Positions 32,341-58,229 of a DNA stretch of 64,000 nucleotides are shown here, piece by piece. A program made the position numbers and the translations under genes. Position 1 is the first letter of the stretch. Each line of letters begins with the position of its first letter. Origin of the DNA: Gautieria morchelliformis (lineage: Eukaryota; Basidiomycota; Agaricomycetes; Gomphales; Gomphaceae); assembly GCA_015179125.1 (NCBI GenBank), contig WHVA01000465.1:27002-91001 (forward strand), given 5' to 3'. The notes under the pieces are model-generated. The model had not been told where the DNA came from. It did no database searches and worked only from the letters and a program-made list of their open reading frames with translations.

Positions 32341-32840
32341 TGGTGGGGGAGTGGGCGGCGGGTGCAGGTGTGGGTGCGGGTGCAGGTGTGGGTGCGGGTG
32401 TGGGTGTGGGTGCAGGTGCGGGTGCAGGTGAGGGTGCAGGTGCGGGTGCAGGTGCAGGCGCAGGTACGGGTGCGGGTGCAGGTACGGGTGCAGATGCAGG
32501 TGCAGGTGCGGGTGCAGGTGCGGGTGCGGGTGCGGGTGCAGGGACAGGTTGGGCGGCGACGTGAAGGACGCGGGGGCGGAGGTGGGCGAGCTGGTGTAGG
32601 TGGACGGGGTGGTGGGGAAGCGGGCGGCGGCCGGGTGCAGGTGCAGGTGCAGGTACGGGCGCAGGTGCAGGGACGGGTTGGGCGACGACGCGAAGCACGC
32701 GGGGGGCGCACGCGTACGCGGTGGGGTGAGGGGCGTGGAGGTGCTGGGGTGGGTGAGCTGGTGCAGGAGGACGGGGTGGTGGGGGAACGGGCGGTGGCGG
32801 GTGCGGGTGCAGGTACGCGTGCCCTGGGACACGAATGTGC
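32341..32840. repeat. GGTGCG/GGTGCA hexanucleotide array
   Basis: Most regular at 32360-32545, where GGTGCG, GGTGCA and GGTGTG hexamers follow one another about thirty times. Diverged blocks recur to 32840, including a second CAGGTGCAGGTGCAGG run at about 32640 and a duplicated GTGGGGTGAGGGGCGTGGAGG block (32285 and 32730). Long ORFs on both strands (Val-Gln, Gly-Ala, His-Pro repeats) follow from the hexamer. Confidence 0.85.
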
Positions 32841-35165: not shown

Positions 35166-37519
35166 ATGCCATCAACACCGCCCCAAGCTCTCAAGCTTCC
35201 ATTGATGACGAGCACACCATATAGCGTCAGTTCCAGTAAATCTCATGAATCACACATTTGGACCCAGGATGATTTGAAAAAGCTGATGAAGGGCGAGTTC
35301 TCCAGTGCGATATTCGAGAGTAATTCTCTGCTTGAAGAGCGCTGTCGGGCGGATCAAAAAATTGTCGACACTGTCCTATCCAAACTGAAACCTGGCGTGT
35401 TCTGGGACAGCCCAACCAACACTTTCAAGGAATGGCCCAGCCGCACTGGTCCAGAAAGCGCTCATTATGCGCCGTTGGAGTGGTTACTCAACCAGATTCT
35501 GTCCATCTCCCAAAAGCTGCCGAATGGCAATATCCACCGAGGTCTTCAGTTTTACGTGTACGGTCGGGAAATGGCTGAAGGACTTGACAAAGACTCCCCC
35601 CTAAAACCAGGCCTTGTTGGTTGTCAGTCTGTTGGTGAGAGCCGAGGCTCGAAGCCAAAGCTCTCATGGAACGAGGCTGAAATTTGCGTAGAGGTGAAGA
35701 ATGACTGGCCTGGTTTGATCCTGCAGTCAAGCACGTACGCGCGCTGTATGTTCACACACCGATTGGATAGACTCTTCATCACTGTTATCCATTTCAACAA
35801 TGCAATGATGGGGGTGCGCTTTGGATTTTATTCTCGCATGGGTCTGGTTGTTACGCCGGAACTTGACCTCTCGAAGGAGGGAGGCTTTAAAGGATTTGTC
35901 CGCGGAGTGGTTGGGATTAATTCTTGGACCGACACAAACCACGCTGGAATCGATACTACTCGTACCATCACAGACATTGCGATTCCCGAGAGGGGTATAT
36001 TCAAGATTTAGAAAACACTTTGTGACAGACGTTGCGTTCACGGACGAGCAACACGTGTGTATCTTTTGGTCAAGAAGGGTGCGTTTTGATGTTTAGATAT
36101 CTGGGCCAGTATTTAACAATTGGGTTTGAAGGTGCAACCGCCACTGATGGTTCTCCCGCTCAACCTCCGTCCACTCACTGGTATAACTTACGAAGTCACC
36201 AACCCCCGCGTTCTCAGCCTGGACAAGAGACTGACGGTCGAGAAACCTTGAGGTTGAAGGGAGGCATATCTTTTCTCTTGCTGGACACTGTCATTCTGAA
36301 AGATTCATGGCCATTGAAAACCCATAACAAAGAAGGCACAATGTTTGGAGCATTATCGGGTGGATTTGGACTGCCAGACATCCTTGCCTCATACCCTGTC
36401 AAGGACGGAATGGATAAGCTCATACCTGATGACGCAACGTATTGGCCCGTGTGTGCGCCAGAGCCATACGCCGGGGTTAGGCCTGACAAACGAATACATA
36501 TGCGATCTGTTTTTGAGACCTGAGGGAGGTCACTGCGAGCTGTTCAAAGTCCTCGATTGCTCGTGTGTTGCATAGTGCACGCCATGTTGGGTATGTGAAC
36601 GAAGAGGGCATCGGACATGATTTACCTATAATGGTGACTGACAGGGCATTTTGGGCTGTTTAAGAACGGCTGGTTGCACTGCGACGTAAGTCATGCTGAT
36701 GGATGAAGCTGAGCGGCCGCCTGTGCCAGAGTACGTACCGTCTTTCACATCAGTCCTTTCACTTTTTTATGTTTGCTTCAGTTTTGCCGTGACTCGAGAA
36801 GTTACTAGATGTGTGGGATTCATATGCGATGGGGACCAGGTGATTCATTGGATGCATCAGAAGCAGGAATTAGCAAAGCATCGCTCGGTGGGTCTTTAGT
36901 TGTTGTGTGCGGCTTGTGATTTACATGGTTCTAGGGTACGCTGCCTTTCATGTCTCAGGCGTTGATTGTTGCTTGGGACTCTGGAACGCAAGTTGTGCAC
37001 CAAGTAATTGATGACCTGGAGTCGTTTATATGGGTTTTATTTTGGTCGATTCTGGAGATTCTGGAGACCAAGGGGGCACTCGCGCTACTAGAACTGAATT
37101 ACCATCAAACGATGCTCTCCGACGAGTTACCTGTGTTACAAGCTAGGGGAAGTTTCCTTGATAGGTTAAAGCAACAGGATGCCACGAAAAACTTCTCCAT
37201 GGGCTTGAAGCCATTCTCCAACCTCTTGATTCAATGGTTAACACTTTCTCGGGAGACTGCTCTGGAATGGCTGAAACCAGACTTTGTTAAGGTCGTATTT
37301 TCGGATGCCGATGAGTACAATTTACAGGCCACCAAGCAATACAAGCAGTATGTAACGATTGGGCTTGAATCTCTTTCAGACCTGCCAGAGAGTTGGGATT
37401 ATGTTAATGAGGGGGAAATGACAGGTGAAGAGAGAGTCAAGGAGGGGGGAATGACAGGTGAAGAGAGAGTCAAGGAGGGGGAAATGACAGGTGAAGAGAG
37501 AGTCGAGGAGGGGAAATGA
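35166..37519 (+). pseudogene. FunK1-type fungal protein kinase, catalytic loop damaged
   Basis: FunK1 kinases are an expanded fungal family of uncertain role. The N-terminal exon has the conserved YARCMFTHRLDRLFITVIHF and FVRGVVGINSW regions. Later pieces: VILKDSWP (the lysine strand), VFETxGG, GHFGLFKNGWLHCD (catalytic loop, HCD where HRD is usual), FICDGDQVIHW, HRSGTLPFMS and DDLESFIWVLFW. After HCDVS the frame is lost and resumes at LMDEAERPPVPE, so the loop asparagine is missing. Introns with GT..AG borders separate several pieces. The C-terminus ends in an 11-residue repeat. Kinase activity is unlikely if the sequence is right. Confidence 0.72.
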
Positions 37520-37530
37520 CAGGTGAAGAG
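37411..37530 (+). repeat. 33-base minisatellite in the FunK1 C-terminus
   Basis: Unit GAGGGGGAAATGACAGGTGA plus AGAGAGAGTCAAG, three and a half copies, encoding GEMTGEERVKE. The final copy has a short G run (GGAGGGGAAATG), which brings the stop TGA into frame at 37517. Confidence 0.9.
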
Positions 37531-37730
37531 AGAGGATGAGCTGGGAAAGACCGCATGTAACGCATGACATGTAATATTATGAGATCCTGTAGCCACTGTA
37601 GGAAGAGCGGGCACTTATACTGAGTACTTTTTGCACTACTAAGTGTTGTTTACCAATATCATCCATCACATTGCAGATAATTTTCAACATTCTGACAAAA
37701 AAAAAATTACATTACAGTAGTACAACTGCA
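37520..37730. other. Spacer and Tc1 downstream end
   Basis: Holds the 3' flank of the Tc1 transposase. A terminal inverted repeat should lie here (possibly around 37615-37650), but the partner end is lost and it cannot be confirmed. Confidence 0.35.
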
Positions 37731-38311
37731 CTACAGATAGCCACAGTCCTTCATCCACCCTTGCGCATGTCTGCGTGTAATCCGATCCAGTGCCTCATAG
37801 AGAAACATGAATAGCTCAGCCCTCTCCTTACTTGCAACGCATGCACGGAACTCGGCACCATGACGTCTGAGGTGAGCTTTGATGAAGGAGACTGATTCTT
37901 CGATCAGGTTGAGATCAGGCGAGTACGGCGGAAGATACATCAGTTTGATTCCTCTGCAAATGCAAGATTAGACACTAGTGAAAACAGTTTATAATGGTAA
38001 AAACCTTTGGGCACATAAGAGTGAGACCTCAGGTATGTGGTGAATGGCACAGTTATCCATAACAAGAACGCTCTGTGGTGCCGGGTAAGGGTTCATTACC
38101 TCTAAAAGGCCCTTCAGAAACCCAAGGAACTCTGGACCGTCATATGCCCCTATTTTGATATGGCTATAGATGATTCCATCGTGTGAGAGTGCCAGAAGGA
38201 TTGAAAATCTGAGTGGATATTAGCGATACAATAATGGAGGCCCGTGCACAAATCGTTACCTTTCGCCCCTTTGGAAACGTGCTTGCACTCGAGGCCTACA
38301 TCCCTTGTAAG
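37731..38311 (-). pseudogene. Tc1-like transposase, C-terminal exons
   Basis: DDE transposase acting on inverted repeats at TA sites. Carries the second catalytic D (VLVMDNCAIHH) and the E (PPYSPDLNLIEE), separated by 34 residues: the DD34E pattern of true Tc1 elements. Two 51-base introns (37954-38004 and 38209-38259) with GT..AG borders. It ends at the GTAAG target duplication (38307-38311) of gypsy-1; coding continues at 46784 on the far side of that element. The frame is open throughout. Confidence 0.92.
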
Positions 38312-38988
38312 TATTACGACTGTTCCGATCAACCATCTCCGCCACCTCCGCACATCCTCTGCGCCACCTCTGCGCCACCTCCGACTCTATTCCGACATCC
38401 GCAATATCTGCAACCCTCCTCCCTTGTTCTTTCAGTACCCCTGGCCACCTCCAGATACCGGCCCCCGTACTCGACCCTGAGCACAGCAAGATACCATTTC
38501 CGTAGTTCCGTTTCTTCCGATGCCTATTGTACTTACCCGCCATTGTACTTACCCTACCCTGCACCCCCCTTGTCACCCATTGTTCCGTATTAGTTACTTA
38601 CCCCGTATGTCTATCTGATTCCCACACTCTCCAGAACTTGCTTAGTATCATACCATTACTTGTTGTTCCTGCGCTTTGTATAAAACCCCCTCATGTATGT
38701 CTGTTATTCTGCAATCAGATAATCGCCTTCAATACTTGATTTCCTTCGCTCCATCTCCTGTTCTTAGTACAGCAAGTCTAGCAAGATCTCAGTCTCTCTC
38801 TCTGCCTTCCGTCTTCCGCCTTCCGCCTCAGTTCCGACTCAAGTTCCGACCAACCTTTGGTTCAGTACCTTCCGACTTCCGACTCAGTTCCGAAATACTG
38901 AGGATGATAGTTCATTGGGGGCGCAACCTATAAGTTGAAGCCGCTGTCCTTTCCAGTTCCGACTTAGCGGAAATCTCGATACGTAACA
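38312..38988 (+). repeat. 5' LTR of gypsy-1, rich in TTCCG
   Basis: Begins TATTACGACTG (TG has become TA) and ends ACGTAACA. About fifteen TTCCG pentamers occur, eight of them within 38806-38892. A TATA-like GTATAAAACCCC lies at 38678. The 3' LTR has an extra 12-base block (TTGTTGTTTGCC) near 46321 and few other differences. Confidence 0.93.
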
Positions 38989-39021
38989 GTATTATCTGAT
39001 TCCCACCCGATAACTATCACT

Positions 39022-41211
39022 ATGCCTCCTCATACCACAGCTACTTCAGCTCGAGCAGGAGCTGTCAAAGCTCTCTCTTATTTTGGCAGTCTTAGATCCG
39101 CAGCACCAAGGCACGTGGAACCCTCCGGCAGCTCTCATGTCGGCGATGAGCTCTCCAATGCTATTCCGCAACGATTCGAAGAAGTTCCCGACGCTAATCC
39201 CGACGACAATCCCGACTATGATGGAAACTCGACGAGTAGCAGTGGCGAACAAACAGCAGCGTCATTCCGACGCCCAGCCCCACCACCACCACCTCCACCA
39301 GGACTACCTCAAGGCGGCCCACCCGGCGGTCCCCCAGGCAGTCCTCCACCTCCAATTCCACCTCAGATTCCCGCCAACCCAGTTCCACCTGCGCCAGTTC
39401 CGGATCTTGCACAAGCCATCGCCATGCTAGCCGGACAACTTCAGCGCCCGGCCCAAGCACCACGCCCCAAGACAAAGGTCCGCAAACCAAATCAGTTCGA
39501 CGGTTCCGACCCCAAGAAGCTCCAGCCATTTCTGGTCCAGCTTCAACTCAATTTCCGTGATCGTCCCGACGCCTTTACCGATGACGAATGAAAGGTCAAT
39601 TATGCCCTTTCCTATCTCCGAGGCACGGCTCTCGACTATTTTGAACCCGCCCTCATGGATCCGTTCGCTCTCGTGGACTGGTCCGACGATTACCAGAACT
39701 TCGTTTCCGAACTCCGCAGCAACTTCGGACCATTTGACATGGAAGCCGATGCGGAAAATGAACTCGATAAGCTTCGTATGAAAGACACTCATAAGATAGC
39801 TAAATATATCGTCACATTCCAGCAGCTCACTCCTCGAGTCCAATGGGGAGAAGCCGCACTCCGACGCCAGTTTTACATGGGCTTGCCATCCTGGATCAAG
39901 GATGAAATTGCCCGCGTCGGAAAACCCGCCACCCTTACCAACCTTCGCAACCTTGCCCAATCCATCAATTTGCGCTACTGGGAAAGACATTCCAAGATCG
40001 CTCGCGAAACTTCCGCCCAGAGCAAGAATGACAAGTCTTCCGGCAAGAAGTCTGACAAAGACAAGAAGAAGACTAATTCCGGAAACACCAACTCTGGAAA
40101 CAACAACAACAACAACAGTTCCGGATCCAACTCCGGCAACTGGAACAACAACTCCACCCCTCGCAATAACCAGGCCTCTGGTTCCAACACCAACGCCCGG
40201 AAGAGTACTCCGGATCTTTCCGACAAACTTGGGAAGGACGGAAAACTTACCCCTGTAGAACGCCAGCGTCGCATGGACAACAACCTTTGCCTTTTCTGCG
40301 GCAAAGGCGGTCACGTCGCTTGGGATTGCACCCGAGCTTCCGCTTCCGCTGCTAAGGCCAAGGGCCATGTGGCGAAGACGGAAGAGAAATCCGAAGCGGC
40401 CCCCGCTACGGATGCAAAAAAAATAGTCAGCAGTCCTCCGGCCTCCGCACGAGCTGAGGGCTGTGTTGACCCCATTCGTGCGACAAAAAATGTTAAACTC
40501 AACGCATCCGCTCTTTCGTCCTCCGACTCCCTCTCTGTTCCGCTCACTTCCGACACAATTTCCGCACCCCCGTTCACAGCATTGATCGACTCCAGTTTGA
40601 GTCATTGTTTCCTCGATTCCGACTTTGTTTTGAAACATAAACTTCCGACCCACAACATCCCGACTATTCCGCTCCGCCTTTTCGACAGATCTTCCAACAC
40701 GGCAATTTCTCAAGTCGTGGATCTGTCTATCCGTTTTGCTACTGGGGACAACCATGAAGTTACGTTTTACGTTACTCCGCTAGATGCTAGCTGTTCCGTT
40801 GTACTAGGACACAATTGGCTCACCCGATATAATCTGTCGATTAACTGGGCATTGGGTCAAATACAGTTCCGTACCCCGGATCAACTTCCGTCTATTCCGA
40901 CGTCGTCCGCAAAGATGGCTCAGGCCTCTTCTGCAACTCTGCTTGTGGATTCAGTTCCGCACTCCGGTCCCGCTTTAGCACCTCCGTCCCTCGAAGCTCC
41001 TCGAATTGCGCTCGTTTCCGCCACCGCTTTCCAAGTATTGCAACGGCAAGATGATACGACCGTTTTCCAGCTTCACCTTTCCGACTCGGCTTCAGTCAAG
41101 GCTCGTTCCGCCTCGACTACCGCTCCGGTCAACATGAGCTCAGTTCTGGAAGAATATCGTGACTTCCCGGATGTGTTCAATAAGGCCAAAGCCGATAAAC
41201 CTGCTGAACAT
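39022..41211 (+). pseudogene. Gypsy-1 gag and protease, two stops
   Basis: Structural protein and aspartic protease. A Pro/Gly-rich N-terminus, the retrotransposon gag domain (FLVQLQLNFRDRPDAF, YLRGTALDYFEP), an Asn-rich linker, a zinc knuckle (CLFCGKGGHVAWDC) and the protease (TALIDSSLSHCFLDSDF; DSS where gypsy-2 has DSG). TGA at 39589 and at 41212 correspond to CGA in gypsy-2, so both are C-to-T changes. A run of eight A (40426-40433) fuses gag and protease in one frame; gypsy-2 has seven A and a stop. Confidence 0.93.
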
Positions 41212-41235
41212 TGACCTTACGATTTAAAGATAAAT

Positions 41236-43325
41236 TTGGAAGAAGGAGCATCTCCGCCCCTTGGATCGATCTACTCTCTTTCGCAAAGTGAACTCCAAAC
41301 TCTCCGCGAATTCGTCGATGAACACCTCAACATGGGCTTCATCCGCCCTTCGCTGTCTCCGCACGGCGCTCTGGTCCTTTTCGTCAAGAAAAAGTATGGA
41401 TCTCTCCGCCTCTGTGTCGATTTCCGCGGACTCAATGCCCTTACTAAGAAGGACAAATATCCGCTTCCACGCATTTCCGATCTACTCGACACTCCCCGCA
41501 GGGCAAAGATCTACACCAAAATTGACCTCCGGCACGCTTATCACCTTGTCCGTATCTGGGAAGGTGACGAGTGGAAGACCACTTTCCACACCCGCTATGG
41601 TGCTTTTGAGTGTGTTGTCATGCCTTTCGGTCTAACCAATGCTCCCGCCGCTTTTCAGCGATTCATGAACGACGTATTTTCCGACCTTCTCGATGTATGC
41701 GTCCTAGTCTACATTGACGACATCCTCATCTATTCCGACACACCGGAAAAACATCGGGAACATGTCCACAAAGTACTCCGCCGTCTACGCAAACACCATC
41801 TCTACGCAAAAGCAGAGAAATGCGAATGGCATCGCGACACGGTCGAATACCTCGGCTACATCCTCTCTCCAACAGGTCTTACCATGGCAGAGGACAAAGT
41901 CAAGGCAATTCAAGAATGGCCGGAATGTTGGGTGCATTTATGCTCCTGCACCAAAATCAAGCATAATATATTCAATTTCTTGTATGGTGTTTCAATCTCT
42001 TCTCACATTGTTCTTGTACCATGCATCCATTTCTCTGCTTGTTTTCGAAATTTTCCAGTCACTCTCTACCTCTCCATTCCACTTTGTTATTTCTATTTTC
42101 ACAAGCGGCTGCACCCAGCGGAGTCTGAAATGACTTCGACGCGCGAGCTCTTGGGCGCTAAAGGGCCGGGTAGTAGTACATGCACAGTGAGACAGATTTC
42201 CCCCTCTCTCAGTGACAACTAAATTCACTGAGAGAGGCAAGTAAATTAGTCTAGTGTTCCTTCGATTTACTGACCTAGAAATCCTCTGTAGTGAATCAAT
42301 TTCTAGGTAGTGTATAATATATTTACAGTGACAACTAAATTCACTGAGAGAGTGAATTAATTTCTAGTCTATTCTTTTGAGCAACAAGTCCATACCTACT
42401 GCCTATAATTCCTGTCTACTACACGGAACCCCGACGTGTTAAGGATGTGCAGTCTTTCCTTGGCTTCGCCAATTTTTACCGACGTTTCATTTATAATTTT
42501 TCCGACATTACTGTTCCGCTCACGCGTCTCACCAGGAAGGGTGCCCCATGGAATTTCACTCCAGAATGCCGTTCCGCATTTGAAGCTCTCAAAGCGGCCT
42601 TCACTACGGCTCCTATACTCGGTTTCTGGATTCCTGATGCCCAACTTGTACTCGAAACCGACACTTCCGACTACGCGCTAGCTGCCATTCTTTCCATCAT
42701 TTCCCCCGACGACGGAGAAATTCATCCGATCGCCTTTCATTCCCGCACCTTTTCCGCCCCGGAACTCAACTACGACGTCCACGATAAGGAACCACTTGCG
42801 ATTTTCGAAGCCTTCAAAATCTGGAGACACTACCTCAAAGGTCCAACCTATCCGATCGACGTTGTAACGGATCATAAGAACCTTGAGTATTTCGCGACTA
42901 CTAAGATATTGACTTGCCGTCAAGTCTGCTGGTCTGAATATCTCTCACAGTTCAACATGGTGATCCGCTTCCGCCCCGGAAAGCTCGGAGCAAAACCCAA
43001 CGCACTCACGAGACGTTGGGACGTCTACCCAAAAGAGGGAAGTAGCGACTATGCCAGCGTTAATCCGCACAACTTCCGCCCAGTATTCTCCACTGAGCAA
43101 CTGGCATCGTCCCTGCGTGCCACAGCATTGCAGTTTCCACTACTCCGCGCCTCAATTATTATGGACACCGAGTCTCTCCATTCCGACATCCGTTCCGCAC
43201 TCCGTTCCGACCCCATCTCCGCAGCCCACCTCGATGACCCCACCAGTCCTGGATGGTCCCTCGATTCCTACGGTTTTCTCCGCTACAAGTCCCGGATTTA
43301 TGTTCCGGATACCAACGATCTATGA
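41236..43325 (+). pseudogene. Gypsy-1 reverse transcriptase and RNase H, split by a solo LTR
   Basis: RT blocks [49 protein letters not shown] and the catalytic [11 protein letters not shown]. The sequence is interrupted at 41926-42423 by the LTR and resumes [18 protein letters not shown]. RNase H follows: LVLETDTSDYALAAIL, FHSRTFSAPELNYDVHDKE and VVTDHKNLEYF. TGA at 43323 separates it from the integrase, probably from CGA. R-to-W and R-to-H changes against gypsy-2 (VRIWEG, TTFHTR) fit the same C-to-T decay. Confidence 0.93.
41926..42423 (+). mobile_element. Solo LTR of the copia-C family in gypsy-1 RT
   Basis: 498 bases, TGTTGGGTGC to CTACTACA. It is flanked by CGGAA at 41921-41925 and 42424-42428. 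Removing the LTR and one CGGAA restores the exact sequence found in gypsy-2 (GGCCGGAACCCCGACG), which proves the insertion. Confidence 0.97.
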
Positions 43326-43331
43326 CTTCGC

Positions 43332-44627
43332 GTGCTCCAGCAAAGCCATGATCATCCGCTCTCAGGACACCAAGGCCAGAACAAAACCCTCGACATAATC
43401 CGATGTTCCTACACTTGGCCTCTCCTCCGCACGATGGTCCAAGACTACTGCAAGTCATGCACCACCTGTATGCGCACCAAGCCCCAACGTCACAAACCAT
43501 ACGGCCTCCTGAAGCAACTTCCGATCCTGGAACAACCGTGGAATTCAATATCCATGGATTTCATTAAGAAACTTCCTAAGTCATCTGGCTATGATACCAT
43601 TCTAGTTATCGTTGACCGCCTCACAAAGCAGTCCATCTTTATTCCGACCTACGACACCATCACTTCCGCCCAGCTCGCACAGCTCTTCGTGCTTCACGTC
43701 TTTTCCAAGCATGGAATCCCTTCCCATGTCACTTCCGACCGTGGATCTGAGTTCGTGTCATCCTTTTTCCGCACACTCGGCAAGGCTCTCGACATGAAGC
43801 TCCACTTCACTTCCGGTTATCACCCCGAAGGAGACGGACAGACGGAATGTACTAATCAGACCCTTGAGCAGTATCTCCGTGTCTATTGCAACTACCAACA
43901 CAGCAATTGGTCCGACCTCCTTCTGCTGGCGGAATTTGCCTACAACAATGCGCCTTCCGCTACCACCGGAATTTCACCCTTTTATGCCAACAAGGGCTAC
44001 GACCCGAATCTCGCCATCCACCCTGAACGCGACCTCACCTCTGCAAGACCCCGAGATTTCGTTGTAGAACTCGACGACCTTCACCAACACCTCCGAGAGA
44101 ACATCTCTGCTGCCCAGAAGAGATACCAGACTTCCGCCGATCGGAAACGGCTTCCGCAACCGGCATTCGAGATAGGCGACAAAGCCTTTGTCAAAGCTAA
44201 AAACTTCCGCACCACTCGCCCCTCGAAGAAGCTCTCTGAAAAATACCTTGGACCTTACGAGATCATCGCTAAGGCCGGCAGTCGTTCTTTCACCCTCAGA
44301 CTTCCTGACAATATGTGCGCAGTACACCCGGCATTCCATGTCTCCATGCTTGAGCCCGCAGTTCCGAATACAATTCCGAATCGAGAACAACCTCCGCCAG
44401 TCGTCATCGACGGAGAACCGGAATATGAGATCTCGGAAATTCTCAACTCCAAGCTAGACAGACGATACCGCTGCCAACTCCAGTACCTAGTCAAGTGGGC
44501 AGGCTATGAAAACACCGACGAAGAGACTTCCTGGATTTCCGCCACGGAACTCGACCACGCCTCCGAACTCGTCTCAGATTTCCACAAGGCATACCCTGCC
44601 AAGCCTGGACCCCTTCTCGCGCATTAA
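43332..44627 (+). pseudogene. Gypsy-1 integrase with chromodomain
   Basis: Inserts element DNA into the host genome. Zinc-binding start (LSGHQG, CKSCTTC), catalytic core with D in SMDFIKKLP, D in VTSDRGSEFV and E in GQTECTNQT, then a GPYEI-type C-terminal fold and a chromodomain (YEISEIL, YLVKWAGY, TSWISATEL). Chromodomains guide insertion to marked chromatin. The frame of 431 codons is open, but it depends on upstream pol, which is broken, so I list it as part of a dead polyprotein. Confidence 0.93.
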
Positions 44628-44766
44628 GTTGTCCCCAACATTTCCGCCATCTCCGTTTCCGTTTTCACTCTTTTCACTCTTTCAGTCACAAGTCAAATCC
44701 GATTAATTTTTCCACTACACTAATTCCGACGTTCCAAGAAATCTATTCTACATGTCATTCCGACCC

Positions 44767-45971
44767 CTAGTCATCCTCCATCGTGTCCTCACCAAAGCCC
44801 GCCCAGTCTTCCGCTTCCGGATCCTCCGCGTTTCCGTTCCGCCCATACTCCTCTGCGAACCTCTGCACATCTTGGACCTCGCCCTCAGATACTTCCACCT
44901 CCACTTCCGAGTCCTCCCTCTCCTGAATCCACCTCAGTTCCGTGACGATCCGGTTGAGATAGTCCTCGTATGCACCAAGCCGATCCGCGACTGCCAGGTA
45001 GAAGTGGTGTTGCATCTGCAACACCTGCTCCCCCTGTCGAAGCAGCCCCCGGAGCGACCTGGCGATATCCGCAAGCGGATCCGCCACCTGCTCCTCCCGC
45101 GTCGTCCCACTTCCGCTCGCCTCCGGCCCGTCTTGGACTCCCCTTGCCTTGGCAGCCCTGGACAAGGGCTTCTGCACGCCCTGAGTAGGCTTTTCCGAGC
45201 CTACCTCCGATCCTCCGGTTTTCCTCCGCTTGGCTGTCACCCGGGCCTTAAACCCGTCGACCACACATGCCCGCTTCGCGTCCTTGCAGCGATTACAGTC
45301 CGTGGCCTTTCCCGCCAAATCCCTTATGCACGGAAGATTTTTCTCAAGACAGGCATCACAGCTAAGCTGCGATGCGCCGTCTTCTTCCAGAACCGTCCTC
45401 TTGGACCTATCCTTCCGGCGCTGTTTCTCCTCCTGCGCCGCCCGCCATTCCGCCGTCGCCTTCCCTTTGCCCTTGTTCATTGGCCTCGGGGTTTCTTCCG
45501 GCGACGTTTCTGACGGAGGTCCACTCCGCTCGGACTCCTGGTCTGCATCCGCAGCCTTTTCCTGTTCCGATGGTCAACCCCATACCGTCAAGAACAAGAA
45601 ATACTTACTTTCTGCGACCCGCGATTTTCCTCCGCCTTCTCCACGGTGGACATTTCCGCAGCCGCTTGCTCCTCCGCAAGCTTCTCCGCAGCTTCTTCAG
45701 CCTCCCTCTCCTCGCGTTCGCGCTTGATGCGCTCAAACTCGCGCTCGCGGTCTTCGCGCTCGTGCTCCAGCCGATCGTGTTCCTCCTGGTCCTTGCGCTC
45801 TTTTTCCCTGCGCTCTTCCTCCCTGCACACCTCCTCCAGTCGTTCCTTCTCTTTTTTCGCTGCCTCCTCGGCCTCACGCTTTTCCGCGAGCTCCTTCTCG
45901 GCGAGAACATTGGCAAAATGCTCTTTCATCTGAGCACTGGTCATTTTCGAGAAATCAGGAAGAGAGCTCAT
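44767..45971 (-). CDS. Antisense two-exon gene in gypsy-1: coiled-coil and Zn(2)Cys(6)-like protein
   Basis: Exon 1 (45971-45609) encodes MSSLPDFSKMTSAQMKEHF, then a long Glu/Arg/Lys-rich coiled coil. A 47-base intron (GTAAGTAT..GAACAG, 45562-45608) joins in phase 0 to exon 2 (45561-44767). Predicted length 385 residues. Cysteines 189, 192, 199, 210, 213 and 220 give C-x2-C-x6-C-x10-C-x2-C-x6-C, exactly the Zn(2)Cys(6) binuclear cluster pattern of fungal DNA-binding proteins. Basic residues precede it; a helical region (residues about 270-330) and an acidic tail follow. No stop or frameshift, unlike the sense genes around it. Its start lies 121 bases from the 3' LTR, the likely source of an antisense promoter. 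Function is unknown; DNA binding is inferred. Confidence 0.75.
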
Positions 45972-46092
45972 GATGGATCAGAAATCGCGATGATTTTCTC
46001 CCGCCTTTCTTTCGAACTCCGACGCGTTTTGTTCACAGGTCACGTGACCCGATCTGTGGTCTCGCAGGGCTCAACCTTGAAAGGGAGATACT

Positions 46093-46779
46093 GTTACGAC
46101 TGTTCCGATCAACCATCTCCGCCACCTCCACACATCCTCCGCACCACCTCCGCGCCACCTCTGACTCTATTCCAACATCCACAATATCCGCAACCCTCCT
46201 CCCTTGTTCTTTCAGTACCCCTGGCCACCTCCAGATACCGACCCCCGTACTCGACCCTGAGCACAGCAAGATACCATTTCCGTAGTTCCGTTTCTTCCGA
46301 TGCCTATTGTACTTACCCGCCTTGTTGTTTGCCATTGTACTTACCCTACCCTGCACCCCCCTTGTCACCCATTGTTCCGTATTAGTTACTTACCCCGTAT
46401 GTCTATCCGATTCCCGCACTCTCCGGAACTTGCTTAGTATCATACCATTACTTGTTGTTCCTGCGCTTTGTATAAAACCCCTCATGTATGTCTGTTATTC
46501 TGCAATCAGATAATCGCCTTCAATACTTGATTTCCTTCGCTCCATCTCCTGTTCTTAGTACAGCAAGTCTAGCAAGATCTCAGTCTCTCTCTCTGCCTTC
46601 CGTCTTCCACCTTCCGCCTCAGTTCCGACTCAAGTTCCGACCAACCTTTGGTTCAGTACCTTCCGACTTCCGACTCAGTTCCAAAATACTTAGAACGATA
46701 GTTCATTGTGGGCGCAACCTATAAGTTGAAGCCGCTGTCCTTTCCAGTTCCGACTTAGCGGAAATCTCGATACGTAACA
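46093..46779 (+). repeat. 3' LTR of gypsy-1
   Basis: Starts TGTTACGACTG and ends ACGTAACA, just before GTAAG. Same TTCCG array as the 5' LTR. On the minus strand it would have to drive the antisense gene. Confidence 0.94.
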
Positions 46780-47373
46780 GTAAGCCCATCCCATTAGTCT
46801 ATACGTTGTGCGAAGGTCAATTGCACTTTCATCTGTGAAAACCAAATGGTCCGGTGGTTCACTACCAATACGAAACTGGAAACCAGTCCGCGAGGCTTCA
46901 CAGCGCTCTGCGGCTGCCCGTGAAAGCTGGATTGGAGACAAATATAAAGGTTGTCATTCTTCGAGGATTTAATGACTCACTTTCTTTCTTTGCAAGCCAA
47001 GATGTCGAAGCGTCCTCCAGACAGTTGATATACTTACTAAAATACCATGCCGCACCTCTAGCTCTTCAACAAGCTCATCGAGGTAAAGATCGGGTGAGCG
47101 TTCAAGAAGCGCAAGAAGAAACTGTTATAAAGTAAAATAAGCTACAGCTAAACACAGACATGAATTACTTACTTCACTCTGAGCTGAGGTCATTTTTGAC
47201 CCATGAGATAGCCACTTTGGCTCTGCCACGACGTCTCCAACATCCCACCAGAGTTTGATTGTGCGTTGAACTACACGTAGTGACATATCAAGGTCAATTG
47301 CAATATCGGTTGATTTCTTGTTGAGCTTGAATTTTTGGTGTATAACGCGATCCTGCAGATCCTTGCTGTACAT
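46780..47373 (-). pseudogene. Tc1-like transposase, N-terminal exons
   Basis: MYSKDLQDRVI starts a helix-turn-helix DNA-binding region (STDIAIDLDMSLRVVQRTI), a second helical region (LYLDELVEELEVRHG, VSISTVWRTLRHLGL), then the first catalytic D (HLVFTDESAID). Introns at 47122-47172 (51 bases) and 46927-46980 (54 bases). With the part at 37731-38306 the coding exons sum to 963 bases, 320 codons and a stop, all in frame. The ATG lies two bases from the copia-C LTR, so everything upstream, including the second terminal repeat, is lost. Confidence 0.92.
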
Positions 47374-47375
47374 GT

Positions 47376-47873
47376 TGTTGGGTGCATTTATGCTCCTGCA
47401 CCAAAATCAAGCATAATATATCCAATTTGTTGTGTGGCCTTCCAATTTCTTCTCACATTGTTCTTGTATTATGCATCCATTTCTCTGGTTATTTTCGAAA
47501 TTTTCCACTCATTCCTTATCTCTCTATTTCATCTTGTTATTCCTACTTTCACAAGCGGCTGCACCCAGCGGAGTCTGAAATGACTTCGACGCGCGAGCTC
47601 TTGGGCGCTAAAGGGCCGGGTAGTAGTACATGCGCAGTGGAACACATTTCCCCCTCTCTCAGTGACCACTAAATTCACTGAGAGAGGCAAGTAAATTAGT
47701 CTAGTAGTCTTTGCATTTATTGACCTAGAAATCCTCTGTAGTGAATTGATTTCTAGGTAGTGTATAATATATTTATAGTGACCACTAAATTCACTGAGAG
47801 AGTGAATTGATTTCTAGTCTATTCCTTTGAATAACAAGTCCATACCTACTGCCTATAATTCCTGTCCTCTACA
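47376..47873 (+). repeat. 5' LTR of copia-C
   Basis: TGTTGGGTGCATTTATG to CTGTCCTCTACA. Contains a 12-base perfect stem at 47654-47686 and a partial repeat of its right half near 47780-47801. Confidence 0.96.
47654..47686. promoter_or_regulatory. Conserved 12-base hairpin in family C LTRs
   Basis: CTCTCTCAGTGA (47654-47665), nine-base loop, TCACTGAGAGAG (47675-47686). The stem is unchanged in the solo LTRs at 9795 and 41926, in the 3' LTR, and recognisable in the decayed one at 8964, while the loop varies. Role unknown: terminator, packaging or protein-binding site are possible. Confidence 0.75.
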
Positions 47874-47889
47874 GGGTTATGGGCCCCGG
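47874..47889 (+). promoter_or_regulatory. Copia-C primer-binding site (initiator tRNA-Met half-molecule)
   Basis: GGGTTATGGGCCCCGG follows the LTR directly. GGGTTATGGGCCC complements the initiator tRNA-Met anticodon stem-loop over 13 bases. The gag start codon (47879) lies inside this site. Confidence 0.82.
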
Positions 47890-50212
47890 AGACACTTCTG
47901 AGAAGCTGTTGGGTGTTGAGAAGCTTGCTACTGATGGAAGTAATTGGCCATTGTGGCGAGCCACTCTCATCAGCTATTTTGAGTCCAAAAATCTACTCAA
48001 GCATGTAGAAGGGAGAGTCACTCGACCTCCTGATCCTCCAGTCATGCCCCCAGGCCATATTCTAACAGAAGCTGAGGAAACTCAGATGGATAAGGCCGAG
48101 GAGAAGCTGGAGAGATACCTTGCTAGAGAAGGACAAGCCAAGACCCAAATCATCGTCTCAGTGTCAGAGTCATTAGCCCTGATGCTACAGAAGCAGAAGA
48201 CAGCAAAAGAGACTTGGGATGCACTGGTCAATGAAATGACCAAAAAGCCCAAGATGGTCCTCACCAGCCTGCAGAGACAACTCCGCAGTATGAGATGTCC
48301 TGAGGATGGAGACTTGAGAGATCACTTGGACAAGGCCCAAGACCTATATGCTCGTCTTAATGAGATGGGAGCTAGAGTTTCTGAAGAAGAATTCATGGAC
48401 ATAATCCTTGCGTCACTTCCACCATCCTATGAGGCAGTCATGAATGCCCTTACAACTTCGCTTGAAGAATGCGGGATGCCATTGGTCCCTGATAATATTA
48501 TTAGGGTACTAAAGGCTCAGTATGACAGGAAGAAAACACTCCCGCAAGAAGAGCAGGTGTTTATTGGTTCATCTACTAAGAAGGACCAGAAGGGGCAGAA
48601 GGCGCATGTATGCACCAACTGCAAAAAGCCTGGACATTCCATCGAAAATTGCTGGGCTAAAGGAGGTGGTAAAGAAGGTCAAGGACCACGTCAGAAGAAG
48701 AAAGCCAAAGGCAAGAAGAAGAAGAAGGGTAAAGCAAAAGCGAATGTTGCCGAAGAAGAGTCTACTTCTGAGGAAAGTGGTGATGGGCATCTTGCCTTCA
48801 CCAATTTTGACGAGTGCTCTAATTTCAATTTGAGCACATCCTCAGGAGTTATAGTCATACTCGACACCGGAACGACATCGCATATGACTCCTCACAAAAA
48901 TTTATTGAGGAACTACTGTCAATTCTCACAGCCGAGGACTATCCGAGCAGCCAACAAAGGTACCTTTGATGCCTTCGGCTCAGGACTGCTCGTATTATCC
49001 AATAAGGTTGGAGATAGAACAGTAGAAGTCACGTTGCAGGATACATACTATGCACCCAAAATTGCTGCTACCCTCGTCTCGATCGGTCGGTGCGATGATG
49101 CTGGCTACGACATTCGACTCGGTGGCCAGAAATGCACAATATCTAATGCTGCTGGAAAAGTATTGATGCAAGCACCGAAAGTCAATGGCTTATATCGACT
49201 AGACCTCCAGTCACCAAGTGCTCAAGCCCATATGTGTTTATCTGCCATGGAAATTCATCAAAAGATGGGGCACATCTCGCAGAAGTCCCTACAACATCTA
49301 TTAAATCATGGCATGATATTGGGCATTGAACTGAGCTCCACAGGCGATAGAATTGTCTGTGATGCGTGTATTCAGGCCAAGATTGCGCGCAAACCTCTTC
49401 CTCGAGAACCCAGAGACCGAACATCAAAATTCGGTGACAGAATTTATTCTGATGTCTGGGGACCTGCAAGACACCTCACGATCGATAAGAAGTCATATTA
49501 TGTCTCCTTTATCGATGACTACTCAAGAGAATCGGTGATCTATCTCATGGCGAACAAATCAGAAGCATTCTCAAAGTACAAGCTCTACGAGGCTTTAATG
49601 CTTCGACAGAGAAATGTGCACATCAAGGCACTTGTTTCTGATCGAGGGGGCGAGTATACGAGCTCTGAATTCGAACAGCATTTAGCCAAACAAGGCACGA
49701 AGCATCAGCTGACGGTACACGACACACCAGAGTCCAATGGTGTTGCGGAGCGCCTGAACCGAACCCTCACTGAGAGAACTCGTGCCATGCTGCTAGAATC
49801 AGGCCTTCCTAAGATATTATGGGGCTATGCAATACAGCATGCCAATTATCTTAGGAACAGGACGCATACAAGAGCTCTACCAGATAAAACGCCCTACGAG
49901 ATGATTCACCATGAAAAACCGAATCTCAAAGACATTCACGCGTGGGGAACTGAAATTTACGTTAAAATCACTCAGGGAGATAAATTGGCAGCTCGTGCCA
50001 AGAGAGCTCGGTGGATAGGAATTTCTGCGCAGAGCCATGGTCATTATGTTTATTGGCCTGACTCGCACAAAGTTTCTGTCGAGCGGAACATTGTCTTTGA
50101 TTCAGAAATGAAGAAGGGAAAGGTCCCAATCATTTCTATTGAGGAATCCAAGCTACCTACGTCTAAAGAAGAGAAGAAGCCATTCCGGCATCAGTGCCTG
50201 TGCCCGGTCGCT
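47879..50212 (+). pseudogene. Copia-C gag, protease and integrase
   Basis: One frame of 778 codons. Gag (WPLWRATLISYFESKN, YARLNEMGARVSEEEF), zinc knuckle (CTNCKKPGHSIENC), protease (VILDTGTTSHMTPHKN), zinc finger of integrase (HQKMGHIS, CDACIQAK), core with YSDVWGPA, VSDRGGEYTS and NGVAERLNRT, then the C-terminal region. Everything up to about 50180 looks functional. A one-base loss there shifts into a stop at 50213, separating the hinge and RT. Confidence 0.9.
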
Positions 50213-52111
50213 TAGTCAGCGAAGAGGCAAAGATCGAAGAAATTGATGAAAGTGCACCGGAAGAATATCTTGAAAAGCTGCAACCTATTCAGGGAGTTGA
50301 TGACAGACCTAGAGAAGCTGAACCGATAAGGAGAAGCGAAAGGATCCGTCAACAACAAGTGCAGTCGGCCCCATCAGGTCCCGTGACAAGATCTCAAACT
50401 CAGAGACAAACTGGCGCACATATGACTACGCTAGCTTACGAGGACGTTGAGGACCATGAAGAAGTTTTATTCGACCAAGAATTATCCTCCGAGATTGATG
50501 GCATCAGTAGCTATGAGTGTGCCATCAGTGCGTTTCTAACCGACGGTCAAAACAATACAAGGCGCCGGATTTGAGTCAAATTGAACCTAGCAATGCAGAC
50601 GAAGCTCTGAATATATGTGGAAGAAATCAATGGACAAAGAGTATGAGGCCCTAATCGACAAGGGAGTGTGGGAAAGAACCAAACCACCTCCTGGAGCCAA
50701 CATTGTCGGCAACAAATGGGTCTACCTTTGGAAGCGTAATCCAGAAGGGAAACCAATAGTACCTAAATCGAGAATGGTCGCCCAAGGCTTCACGCAGAAG
50801 TTTGGAATCGACTATGATGAGACATACTCACCTGTTGCTCGGTTATCCTCCCTACGGATCATATGCGCCATTGCTGCTAGGAATGACTGGCCTATTCATC
50901 AAATGGACGTGGACTATGCATACCTCAATGCTAAGTTGCCCGAACCTATTTACATGAAGCAGCCGTATGGATATGAGTCAGGAGACAAAGGCGAAGTGCT
51001 ACTTTTGAAGAAAGCACTCTACGGCCTCAAGCAATCTGGAAGAGAATGGTACAAACGTCTAAGTGGTGAATTCCACAAGTTAGGATTCACTACGTCAGCC
51101 ACAGACGGGGCTGTTTTTATAGACGTGGCGGAAAGGGGCATGTGATCATTGCAACAGCTGTGGACGACCTTACCATCACAGCTGAGAATCAATCAGTCCT
51201 GGACGAAGTCAAACGAGATCTTGCTCAGGTCTTCAGTATGAAAGATCTAGGCGAGATTCATTGGCTATTGAATCTCAAAATCGAAAGAGACTGGCAGAAG
51301 AAGACCATTGCAATTTCACAACCTGCATACATCGAGAAGATCATCAAAAAATTTAATCTCGAAGATGCAAAGACTTATGCTACGCCTCTTGATCCAGCCG
51401 TAAAATTATCTAAAGACCAATGTCCTTCTACAGAGAGAGGCAAGAAAGCCATGTCGAATTTCCATACAGCAAGCTATAGGATCACTGATGTGGGCGGCTG
51501 TAGCCACTCGACCTGACATTGCATTTGCGGTGTCATTACTCTCGCAATTCCTTGAAAATCCAGGTGGCACACACTGGAATGCAGTCAAACGTGTCTTCAA
51601 ATATTTGAAAGGCACGAAGCATTACAAGCTCACACTTGGAAGAAATCAAGACGGCTTGATGGGGTATTCAGATGCGGATTGGGGTTCACAGAGTCATAGG
51701 CGTTCGTATTCGGCATACTTATTTCAGATTGATGGAGGCACTGTTTCATGGAGTTGCCAGAAACAGTCGATAGTAGCCCTCTCATCAACTGAAGCCGAAT
51801 TCGTCGCCCTGACCCATGCGGGCAAAGAGGCTCTTTGGATGCGCCATTTTATTTCTGAAATATTCCAACCACTGAACAGACCCATCCAAGTTTATTCAGA
51901 CAATCAATCAGCCATTGCCATCACGTATGGCACCCAACAACACACGAGAACCAAGCATTTCGACATCAGGTTATATTTCCTTCGAGATATAATCAAAAAT
52001 CAACAAGCCAAGCTCGTTTATTTGCCAACCGAACAAATGTTGGCAGATATCCTCACTAAAGGACTTCCTAGTCCTAGAGTGAAGATTCTCAACGAGCAAA
52101 TCGGAATATAT
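50194..52111 (+). pseudogene. Copia-C hinge, RT and RNase H in four frames
   Basis: Hinge (REAEPIRRSERIRQQQ), RT (GNKWVYLWKRNPEG, MVAQGFTQKFGIDYDETY, YGLKQSGREWYKRL, catalytic TAVDDLTI) and RNase H (GYSDADWGS, ALSSTEAEFVALT, DNQSAIAIT, HTRTKHFDIR, DILTKGLPS) are all present. Frame breaks lie near 50605 (LNI for LKYM), 51130 (short G run before CATGTG), and 51480. The end, IGIY-stop, is followed by the purine tract GAGGGGGCG and the 3' LTR. Confidence 0.9.
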
Positions 52112-52127
52112 TAAGCTTGAGGGGGCG

Positions 52128-52625
52128 TGTTGGGTGCATTTATGCTCCTGCACCAATATCAAGCATAATATATCCAATTTGTTGTGTGGCCTTCCAAGTT
52201 CTTCTCACATTGTTCTTGTATTATGCATCCATTTCTCTGGTTATTTTCGAAATTTTCCACTCATTCCTTATCTCTCTATTTCATCTTGTTATTCCTACTT
52301 TCACAAGCGGCTGCACCCAGCGGAGTCTGAAATGACTTCGACGCGCGAGCTCTTGGGCGCTAAAGGGCCGGGTAGTAGTACATGCGCAGTGGAACACATT
52401 TCCCCCTCTCTCAGTGACCACTAAATTCACTGAGAGAGGCAAGTAAATTAGTCTAGTAGTCTTTGCATTTATTGACCTAGAAATGCTCTGTAGTGAATTG
52501 ATTTCTAGGTAGTGTATAATATATTTATAGTGACCACTAAATTCACTGAGAGAGTGAATTGATTTCTAGTCTATTCTTTTGAATAACAAGTCCATACCTA
52601 CTGCCTATAATTCCTGTCCTCTACA
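52128..52625 (+). repeat. 3' LTR of copia-C
   Basis: Same length and ends as the 5' LTR. The minus-strand LINE begins at 52626 with no target duplication. Confidence 0.96.
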
Positions 52626-55600
52626 GGAGGGTCCCCCTGCACTCGATGGGGATGAATCTCTCTTCGCTCGAGTGTCCTCTGGCCGCTTTTTTGGCTTCTG
52701 CGTCAGCTCTCTCGTTTCCCGCTATTCCAGCATGTCCCGGGACCCATCTCATGAGCACCGCCGCCCCTGGCTGCTGTGCTACCATGCCCTCGATCTGTCT
52801 GTGGAGCGCTTCTACCAGATACTGGCCTGAGGTGGCCTTCTCCCGCCTCGTGGTTTGTATCGTGGCCTGGCTGTCTGTGGCTATGACGTACTTCTTTCCC
52901 CTCTGTGTGTTCAGGAGCTTAGCTCCCATTGCCGCACCTGCCAGCTCGGCCTCGAAAACGGTGTGATCACGATCTGTTCCCATGTATAGTCTCACCACCT
53001 GCACCATCCTGCTCCCTCTGTATAGGACTGCTGCCGCTCCTACTCCCCCGTTGATGCACGAGCCGTCTGTGTATATCTTGACATCTGCTGCTTCCTTATC
53101 ATTCTCTTCCACTGCTTGGTCTTTGCCTGTTGGGATGTGGGTTTTGAAGGCTGGCGACCACTTTGGCCCTTGCATGACTGTCCGAATCTTCTCCATCTTA
53201 TCCGGCTCAAGATTGAATGCGTGCAGTATTTCATGCAGGGGCGCCCTGTGTCTCTTTACATATCTTTTGGCTGCTGTGCTTACGGCTGACGCTAGGGGGT
53301 GAGTATTGGGTAAACAGGTGAGTCTCAATGCAGCTCTGTGTACGAGTTTGGAGACTAGGAGTGGGAATGGGAGGAGGTTCGCATGCGCGTCCAGTACGTC
53401 GTTTGCTGTTGTACTCATAGCCCCTGTTATTGACAGCGCTGCTTGCCTTTGGATCCGCCCCAGTTTGTTTATGTGGCCCTTGGTTCCCTTCGAGCGTTCT
53501 GATCCTGGCACGAGGAATACGTCAGCTGCGTACAACATCTTTGGTATTGCAACCGTGAGGTAGTATCTCTGCATGTACTTAGCTGACACTCCTTTGGTCG
53601 GCCTTGTCAGACGTCTATACTGCGCAATATAGTGTTCACCCTTCTTGAGCGCATGGTTCACCTGCTCTTTGTAGCGTAGTTCCTGGTCTATTATCATTCC
53701 CAGAAACTTGTGAGTGGTGGCTGGCTTTATTAGGTGTGCCCCGATCTTTATGGTTGGCCGCGTGAGTGGTCTGGACCTCTTGGTTTTCGTGGTGTCCTTC
53801 TCCCGACGCCTCGTCAATCCCATGAGGCCGAATTTTTCGACCGCGAAGCTGCAGTGATGCTTCTCCACCCACTCGTTGGCCCCCCCGGGCCTCGTCATAA
53901 TATTGGCTAGCTTCCCGAATGCCTCGTTGAAATCCGCTCCCTCGGCTATTAGAGTGGTGTCATCGACGAAACCGACACAGTCCTCGCCTCTTTCTCGCTG
54001 CACTACCTCGATCAAGTCAGCGTTATAGAACTGATATGCTATAGCAGATACCGGGCAACCCTTGTCCATCCCTCGATCTACTGGCATGGCCTGCATGCTG
54101 TAGTCGTCGAAACCAATAGTTGTGCGTCTCCCCTCTACCCTTCTTTTGATCCACTTCGTGTACTCCTCAGGTACTCCCCTCTTGCGCATGTTATGTACTA
54201 GCTGGTCGAGGATGACACTCGGGAAGGCACCCTTTATATCTAGGTATAGCACTCCTAGAACCCTGCCCCGCCTCCATGCGTTTTTTGCCGCGGTTATGGT
54301 GTAGTGCAGGGCGTCGGTTGTCGTCCTTCCAGGCCGGCAGCCAAAATGATTGTCCGGCAGCAGGAAGTGCCTCTCCATCATCTTGACCAAGTCCTCTGCT
54401 ACACAGGCCGATAATACCTTGCCTATTGTGTCTAAGAGCGCTATGGGTCTATACGCACCGGGGACTGTGTAGTCCGGTTTCCCCGGTTTCCTGAGGACTC
54501 TCGTAACCGAGTATTTCCACTCTGCTGGATAGGTGTTCAGGCTAAAGGTAGCTCTGTATAGCGGGCCTAGATAAGGCAATAGTGTATCAATGCACTGCTT
54601 TATAACTATATTGGGGATGCCGTTGGCCCCAGGTGCCTTGAAGGGATTCAGCCTGTCTACCGCTCGGTGTATCTGGTTGTCGGTGATGGGCTCGAACTCA
54701 AAGGCTGGTGGTGGGTACTCGAAGTCCTCTTGAACCTCGGCTGTGCTTGCCCTAGCTCTTGGGAAAAATGTGCTGAACAGCCTTTTTGCCTTTTGCTCAT
54801 TCGTGGTGGCTACCCACTTTGTGCCGTCATCCCGCTTTGCTGTTAAGTTCGGCACCCTCGTGCGCCCCCATCTGTCGCATCTGCTGTAGCATACCTGTGT
54901 GCCGTCCATACTGTCTTCTCGTCTATCTCCTCTAGGAAGGCGTCCCAATGCTGCTTCTTGTTTTTCTTGATGGCGTCGGCATATTGATTCCTTGCGTTCT
55001 TGTAGTCCTCATGCGCCCGGTCTGCTGGCTCTCCCCTTCTTACATATGCTCTCCTGCCTAGCCACCTGGTGTTGGTCCTAAGCTCGGTCAGCTCTCGCGA
55101 CCACCACCTTTTCATGTATGGCGAGGGCTTGGTCTTGGGTGCTAGATCCTCTGCTGTCTCGATTATTGCCTTTGTGATCTCATGGAGGTGATGCTGGAAG
55201 GTGCGCTCGTCTGCCGGCTCTGGTTCAGCAATGTTGTCTAGCAGGCGCTCCTTCAGGCTTTCGTTGAAGGCCTTCCAGTCGACCTCCCTGTAGTTCGCTT
55301 TTGGAAGGCAAGTCACCGTGGCGATGGTCATGTCTATTGTTGTATCAACTGGGAAATGGTCACTCCGCACCGGCAGGTCCTCTGGGACTGTTGTGCATGT
55401 GATCAGCCTTTCAAGCAGGGTAGTAGAAATGAAGACGTTATCAGTTTGTGTGTGATTTCCCGTCGACATAGCACGTAGCGTAGGTATGGCCCCGGGGAGT
55501 GCCATTTGTAGGTCGTGTTCGGCAGTAGCATTTAGGAGTATCTGTGCTGCGTCCAGGTTGCTGCTGGTGAACAGGTGTGCATTTCGTTCTTCATCCCATA

Positions 55601-57771: not shown

Positions 57772-58229
57772 GTCCCCTCCTTTTCTAGTTATGGTGTGCG
57801 TGCTACCTCTATCTTCTACTATCAGGTCTCTACATGTGTTTTGGATGGTGTGGGGATGAGAAAATGTGTTTTGGAAATTTTGGTGTGGTGGTAAGCGTGA
57901 GAACTTTTTTTTTTGGTGAAACCGGTATGCCATGGTCCTGTTCTGACAGCGAACAGCTTCTGAGGCACCGACTTGCATGCTACAGCGAAGAGTACGTGGG
58001 AGTCCCTTGGACACACTTACACTCGAAGGTCCACATGGTAACAATGTACCTGACTTAGCTGTGCAACCTAATGTTTTCCGGGCCAGGGCTGGGCTCAAAA
58101 GCCTGGGCTTGGGCTTGGCCTGAAGGGGCCCAGGCCTGCGGGTGTGGGAAGTCGTCGAAGGGGACGCCGCACAGGCATACAATTTGGTACTTGTAATTAG
58201 TACTACAATAAATTAGATGGCAGAATGGC
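57772..58229. other. LINE leader and spacer before the peroxidase relic
   Basis: An ORF extends upstream of the ORF1 ATG on the minus strand but its sequence shows no domain. 58080-58140 has GGGCTTGGGCTTGGCCTGAA-like repetition. The LINE 5' end cannot be placed exactly. Confidence 0.4.

Follow-up and report, generated by a model that had tools for sequence, protein, structure and literature searches.

The window, that is the 64,000-nt stretch of Gautieria morchelliformis DNA analyzed here, contains on its plus strand a chromodomain Ty3/gypsy element (38312-46779) delimited by a pair of long terminal repeats (LTRs) and by a 5-bp target-site duplication, GTAAG, at 38307-38311 and identically at 46780-46784. 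The 5' LTR (38312-38988) and the 3' LTR (46092-46779, rich in the word TTCCG) are 95.5% identical. Between them follow, in the same orientation, a region for gag, protease and part of the reverse transcriptase (39022-41925) with in-frame TGA codons at 39589 and 41212, a solo Copia LTR of 498 bp inside pol (41926-42423), which shares about 91% identity with the LTRs that lie at 47376 and at 52128, and a region for RNase H, integrase and chromodomain (42424-44627) with a third in-frame TGA at 43323. The Pfam domains Integrase_H2C2, rve, SH3_Tf2-1 and Chromo exceed their cut-offs over 43332-44624 (Chromo with 32.6 bits versus a cut-off of 25.1), and with a chromodomain behind the integrase, LTRs and a 5-bp duplication the element is a Ty3/gypsy chromovirus. 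Target-site duplications of 5 bp are also legible at four other loci (L011, L013, L019, L022).

Several further features were noted in the same window. Another member of this gypsy family (92-96% identity) starts at 59919 and is truncated at 64000, where both the contig and the window end, and a Copia element with LTRs 99.2% identical and a 778-codon open frame (47879-50215) is located at 47376-52627. A degenerate internal repeat array at 32266-32822 lies in a bin with 64% GC and a GC skew of +0.43, and a short tandem repeat of MTGEERV units closes an open reading frame (ORF) at 37403-37534.

Between the chromodomain and the 3' LTR, on the strand opposite to gag-pol, lies a gene that the initial annotation had described as a spliced minus-strand gene with a 47-base phase-0 intron, carried inside a gypsy element. 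This description is borne out. Exon 1 (45971-45609; 121 aa, rich in E, K and R, a putative coiled coil) and exon 2 (45561-44767) join into an open frame of 385 aa, and the 47-nt phase-0 intron between them (45608-45562) reads GTAAGT...TTGAC...CAG. Exon 2 encodes a six-cysteine cluster, a long helix (in the structure model) and an acidic tail; the cluster has the spacing C-x2-C-x6-C-x10-C-x2-C-x6-C that had been reported for it, with the cysteines at exon-2 residues 68, 71, 78, 89, 92 and 99 (codons 45265-45360). The gene is preceded by a leader (45972-46091) including a purine-rich tract that adjoins the LTR, and the inner 95-99 nt of this leader are 85-90% identical in all ten loci from L037 to L046.

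A search of the host genome (122-Mb assembly) gave 125 matches, the best-scoring 20 of which, the window copy among them, were studied; as top scorers these are a non-random sample, and L016 and L017 are near duplicates. Absence from other family members had been named initially as an observation that would speak against the gene, yet it is present in antisense orientation at the same place in all 20 copies. Both the chromodomain and the 3' LTR are visible around it in 18 of them, the exceptions being L012, which begins at a contig end past the chromodomain, and L026, which has no leader or 3' LTR match. The six cysteine codons encode cysteine in 20 of 20 copies, the splice donor GT is found in all 20 and the acceptor AG in 19, and the length of exon 1 is divisible by three in 16 (with exon 1 of L026 taken in its shortened form). 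In its location between pol and the 3' LTR, its opposite strand and its presence in most copies of the family, the gene agrees with the antisense ORFs of LTR retrotransposons (aORF-3R), a class for which an antisense transcript and a nuclear protein are expected as well. The antisense gene is real and is part of the element.

The initial annotation had contrasted the three stops in gag and pol, which are indeed in frame, with the lack of any lesion in the antisense gene and had taken the latter to suggest recent constraint or chance escape. For this single copy the lack of a lesion is uninformative, because three stops in about 5.1 kb predict fewer than one lesion in 1.16 kb and because only nine of the 20 copies keep an unbroken spliced ORF. 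One of these nine, L019, has AA in place of the acceptor AG, and another, L016, has the most similar LTR pair (99.8% over 630 nt).

Constraint is evident from the substitutions among copies, which were compared with an expectation derived from the same mutation spectrum (19 copies for the exons, with L017 left out; 15 for the reverse transcriptase, 17 for the integrase, 18 for the chromodomain and 11 for the LTR, the latter read in three frames). Shared substitutions in exon 2 comprise 116 synonymous, 86 non-synonymous and no stop changes, versus 66.2, 130.3 and 5.5 expected, which corresponds to a ratio of non-synonymous to synonymous changes (N/S) of 0.38 relative to neutrality (p 8e-12); the ratio for exon 1 is 0.32. 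A dN/dS near one across copies, which had been put forward as an outcome that would refute the initial interpretation, was not what we found; together with the presence of the gene in the other copies, this supports that interpretation. The corresponding ratios of the sense genes are 0.25 (reverse transcriptase), 0.18 (integrase) and 0.26 (chromodomain), and those of the LTR control range from 0.76 to 1.27. Singleton changes, which we take to be mostly post-insertion, give ratios of 0.68 for exon 2, 0.81 for exon 1, 0.65 for the reverse transcriptase, 0.61 for the integrase and 1.12 for the chromodomain. When exon 2 is read in its five remaining frames, shared changes give ratios from 0.56 to 1.90, the frame of the antisense protein being the lowest of all; the value of 0.56 belongs to the opposite-strand frame whose third positions coincide with it. 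The antisense protein is under purifying selection, which is strongest in its own frame of exon 2, and the ratios indicate that it has been maintained in transposing lineages, although less strictly than pol. It is hardly credible that the frame represents a functionless host gene that was captured and carried along, or that chance alone has kept it open. The small number of copies with an unbroken spliced ORF would fit such an origin, but the selection seen in shared changes contradicts it, and so does the intron, whose place and phase are shared by four gene types (described below).

These gene types were found beside chromodomain elements elsewhere in the genome. In addition to the type present in the window (type A), locus L035 led to type B, with at least 150 scored matches, and L047 to type C. 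Types A and B show an identity of about 30% and both keep the six cysteines, and P0001, a protein from a metagenome contig of 916 bp, is 47% identical to exon 2 of the window; the cysteines are invariant across types A, B and P0001 (the six sequences of alignment A2) and, by inspection, are present in type C as well. At L035:2151-2663, a junction of inverted elements, the type B cysteine-cluster frame continues into a chromodomain as one 170-aa ORF. A further type, D, belongs to an element family (L050/L051) with 75% protein identity to the integrase part of the window. Its own antisense gene encodes C-x2-C-x6-C-x15-C-x2-C-x6-C and an acidic tail, and its homology to types A to C is weak (hhalign probability 4.6%). 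Each of the four types has a readable intron, with a length of 47 nt in A, 56 nt in B, 55 nt in C and 46 nt in D; all are in phase 0 and all precede the cysteine exon, with other acceptors being conceivable in type C.

Among the best 150 of 2361 first-look chromodomain candidates, considering up to 2.5 kb downstream, 127 are accompanied by an antisense gene of type A (28), B (61) or C (38) and one by a type B gene in sense orientation, so that at most 22 are without a gene among the matches listed. Near five of these 22 (C136, C394, C460 and two on C315) there is antisense-gene DNA. The type C gene on C136 (L048) is internally deleted, the stretch from exon 1 to the tail being seemingly gone, and C394, judged by its DNA match at 57722-57950, seems to share this deletion. 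The pol frame amounts to 1257 aa in both, and these elements may make use of the protein in trans. A lineage lacking the gene was considered and discarded, as among 40 matches C394 is the only one besides L048 to span the L048 junction. U3 type 1 occurs in 15 of 18 scored A copies, and U3 type 2 in nine of nine B copies and in the one C copy. Strict co-inheritance of the two was rejected, since the A copies L016 and L017 have the U3 of types B and C and L019, also of type A, carries both U3 types in one LTR; the LTRs of these three copies are recombinant.

The Zn2Cys6 family (PF00172) is characterized by the spacing C-x2-C-x6-C-x5-12-C-x2-C-x6-8-C, into which types A, B and C fit with x10, while x15 of type D falls outside the range. 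Exon 2 of one type B gene (L040) matches the Pfam profile Zn_clus with 22.5 bits versus a cut-off of 21, the full-length protein reaching 13.3; two other type B genes (L042, 18.3; L035, 19.2) and type C (15.5) stay below the cut-off. In the Pfam scan the window's antisense protein had no match and type D no Zn_clus match, and NCBIfam gave no match for the two proteins scanned. AlphaFold models, which were built from only two sequences and are of low confidence, show a long helix in exon 2 (residues 162-217, block pLDDT 72-93, mean of the model 57.7) and, for the cluster piece (mean pLDDT 52.1), helices at 9-14 and 30-35 that each begin at a CxxC. Foldseek (best match E 7.4) lent no support to a binuclear zinc fold, and the best hit of a profile search against PDB had an E value of 0.098 (8a3k). 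A protein database search with the exon-2 ORF gave one relative, P0001 (45% identity), and the viral contigs searched yielded none. The profile of alignment A2 retrieved no protein at E <= 0.1; this search was insensitive, because its own member P0001 was missed too. The antisense protein is likely Zn2Cys6-like, judged from its sequence, and the role of a DNA-binding regulator suggested in the initial annotation would be in keeping with this.

More surprising than the antisense gene itself is the accumulation of a short motif, which had not been noticed in the initial annotation. Over its 8 kb the element's plus strand contains 100 TTCCG, compared to about 36 expected from an order-2 Markov model, and 22 CGGAA; in the background (10001-38000) there are 0.9 per kb on either strand, and the Copia element contains TTCCG once and CGGAA five times. 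The solo Copia LTR inside pol is flanked by CGGAA on both sides, which places its insertion in a TTCCG motif. In gag-pol, TTCCG is found 50 times versus 17.0 under synonymous codon shuffling, which preserves both protein and codon usage (z 9.8, first of 1024 pentamers). It also ranks first in the window's antisense gene (13 versus 5.5 expected), and its z under shuffling is 3.6 in the type B integrase part and 2.9 in each of the type B and C antisense genes. In non-coding DNA, observed and expected numbers are 17 and 2.1 for A, 17 and 2.0 for B, and 9 and 1.3 for C.

The LTR is particularly rich in the motif, with 12 occurrences in a 691-nt stretch versus 1.2 by order-1 expectation. Together with the Zn2Cys6-like cluster, the long helix and the acidic tail, this would suit a plain activator in the manner of Gal4 or Tat that acts on LTR sites only, the motifs elsewhere having another cause. 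We consider this unlikely, as TTCCG is present at 4-10 per 500 nt throughout the element and its excess in gag-pol goes beyond codon usage.

The strong strand bias (100 versus 22) and the similar enrichment of LTR, gag, pol and antisense gene raise the question whether the motif might act in the genomic RNA, for example in packaging, export or protection, with the zinc protein as an RNA-binding helper. This appears improbable: CGGAA is itself in excess (17 versus 6.5 expected by synonymous shuffling in gag-pol, rank three; the top word in the integrase part of type B), which suits double-stranded DNA, and a single shared orientation is likewise described for the sites of VANC21 in the accessible part of the respective report (PMC5735166).

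The excess of TTCCG could also reflect a mutational or codon-pair bias of the lineage that is unrelated to the antisense protein. At 31 of the 50 gag-pol sites the motif is formed by the serine codon TCC between T and G, words with z of 4-6 occur in control elements too, and constraint at single motif sites could not be detected. In family A the numbers of shared and single CpG transitions are 79 and 79 within motifs versus 304 and 335 at other CpGs (p 0.59), and at the non-CpG bases of the motif they are 22 and 43 versus 518 and 700 elsewhere (p 0.20), so that there is no significant extra conservation. At CpGs that are not part of a motif, transitions exceed the remaining C-to-T changes about 4.5-fold per site, a raised rate that suggests methylation of these elements by the host. 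Against a bias of this kind, the excess recurs in non-coding DNA, LTR and antisense gene; none of the words TTCGG, CCGAA and CTCCG is enriched, and Copia and two gypsy families of the same genome lack an excess of TTCCG in the coding stretches tested. On balance we find such a bias a rather unlikely explanation, albeit one to be taken seriously.

The two gypsy families in question (L049/L052 and L053) are 47% and 37% identical to the integrase part of the window. Within 1.4 and 1.7 kb, respectively, past the chromodomain frame they show no antisense six-cysteine pattern, and their pol regions show no excess of TTCCG or of the words of family D, their own top words reaching z of 4.6 and 4.2. 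A Copia LTR interrupts L053, in which the 1.7 kb past pol contain five TTCCG. L052, whose family has no visible antisense cysteine gene, shows at 1047-1351 a local array of 19 GACTC copies with spacings of about 10 or more.

Family D differs from the others in its words. In 1.8 kb of its pol, TTCCG is at expectation (3 versus 2.9), and the top three words are CCGAG (18 observed, 6.0 expected), CCTCG (20 and 8.8) and CTCGG (11 and 4.3), of which CCGAG and CTCGG are reverse complements. The non-coding DNA of family D has 6 CCGAG (0.9 expected), 5 CTCGG (1.0), 5 CCTCG (1.2) and 3 TTCCG (1.3). In its antisense gene CCTCG is merely sixth-ranked (15 versus 8.6), and the type B and C antisense genes have a mild excess of the same word (9 versus 4.2 and 6 versus 2.0). 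The top z of family D, 5.7, is unexceptional on its own, because the control word AGAAG reaches z 6.0 in Copia, which we think is due to a lysine-rich stretch. The word contrast of family D is weaker than the TTCCG result. It is conceivable, if doubtful, that a self-recognition resembling that of VANC evolved independently in this fungal LTR-retrotransposon lineage, with a word distributed over the entire element, its coding DNA included, and changing along with the protein (TTCCG in A to C, CCGAG/CCTCG in D) and each family evading silencing selectively; the comparison behind this idea sets four gene types, three of which share one word, against two imperfect control families.

The reading that we favor, tentatively and with chances we would put close to even, is that the antisense gene is a maintained accessory gene of chromodomain Ty3/gypsy elements, whose predicted Zn2Cys6-like protein binds TTCCG/CGGAA in its own element and aids transcription or an open chromatin state. 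The gene would probably be transcribed from the leader or the U3 of the 3' LTR, with a likely start in the 120-nt leader or the adjoining U3, and then spliced. The intron survives retrotransposition because it is antisense to the genomic RNA and thus not spliced out, and the fact that all 20 copies have kept it is consistent with replication by way of the sense RNA only. The product is predicted to bind DNA through its Zn2Cys6-like cluster, probably as a dimer, and to end in an acidic tail; it may occupy the sites dispersed over its own element and so sustain transcription or an open chromatin, in a self-targeting comparable to that of VANC in VANDAL elements. According to the available part of the source, Zn2Cys6 proteins typically recognize CGG triplets (PMC5559640). 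If our reading is true, a retroelement would have been reshaped, one synonymous codon after another, to hold sites for its own protein. With a gene for a recognizable DNA-binding motif and a candidate target in one and the same element, the question of function can be reduced to a single binding assay.

Antisense extra genes of LTR elements as such are already known. The plant elements Grande (gene23), RIRE2, Retand (TRP28) and PvRetro13 likewise carry them between pol and the 3' LTR in most copies, and a DNA-binding or nuclear protein is suspected as the product, as it is here; in the passages available from these reports the authors suspect a regulatory role only (PMC7264820, PMC11963269). 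The domain of Retand is TRP28 (PF04195), whereas the genes described here encode a six-cysteine cluster, contain a phase-0 intron that is conserved, and go along with a motif spread over the whole element. Boty of Botrytis cinerea with its antisense gene brtn is also fungal and also has a chromodomain; the comparison is one by description and not by sequence, and the descriptions at hand mention neither a zinc cluster nor an accumulation of motifs (PMC7264820, PMC4227169, PMC8365987). In the titles and abstract openings that made up the literature searched, we found neither a zinc-cluster antisense gene of an LTR element, nor its conserved intron, nor a family-specific word of this kind, and to that extent these features are apparently new. 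Fungal Zn2Cys6 factors of the Gal4 type have the six-cysteine spacing and a downstream helix in common with the antisense protein, which differs in its weak or missing profile match, in being encoded by a retroelement and in the roughly 60 residues by which the model separates the cluster from the long helix. HBZ of HTLV-1 is a bZIP protein. As an antisense-encoded nuclear protein of a retroelement it provides a further parallel, drawn in the part of PMC11963269 available and consisting in a likeness by description.

A close counterpart in layout is VANC of the Arabidopsis VANDAL elements, an anti-silencing protein that binds its motif and removes methylation, although the parallel is one without sequence homology; none of the type A to D proteins scanned had a VANC domain among its Pfam matches. 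There, too, a protein encoded by the element goes along with a dense motif of one orientation in the element itself, and VANC21 binds short words that are densely arrayed in this manner, as stated in the accessible portion of the report (PMC5735166). From the same portion, VANC21 motifs are mainly non-coding and often form tandem repeats, whereas TTCCG is found throughout coding DNA as well, and related VANDAL families differ in their motif, a difference to which the word contrast between D and A to C, uncertain as it is, may or may not correspond (PMC5735166). A recent survey, as far as its available text extends, places TET/JBP enzymes in fungal DNA transposons and in no retrotransposon (PMC12730594). 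If the self-binding proposed here is true, retroelements would have a route different from that of the TET/JBP enzymes of DNA transposons.
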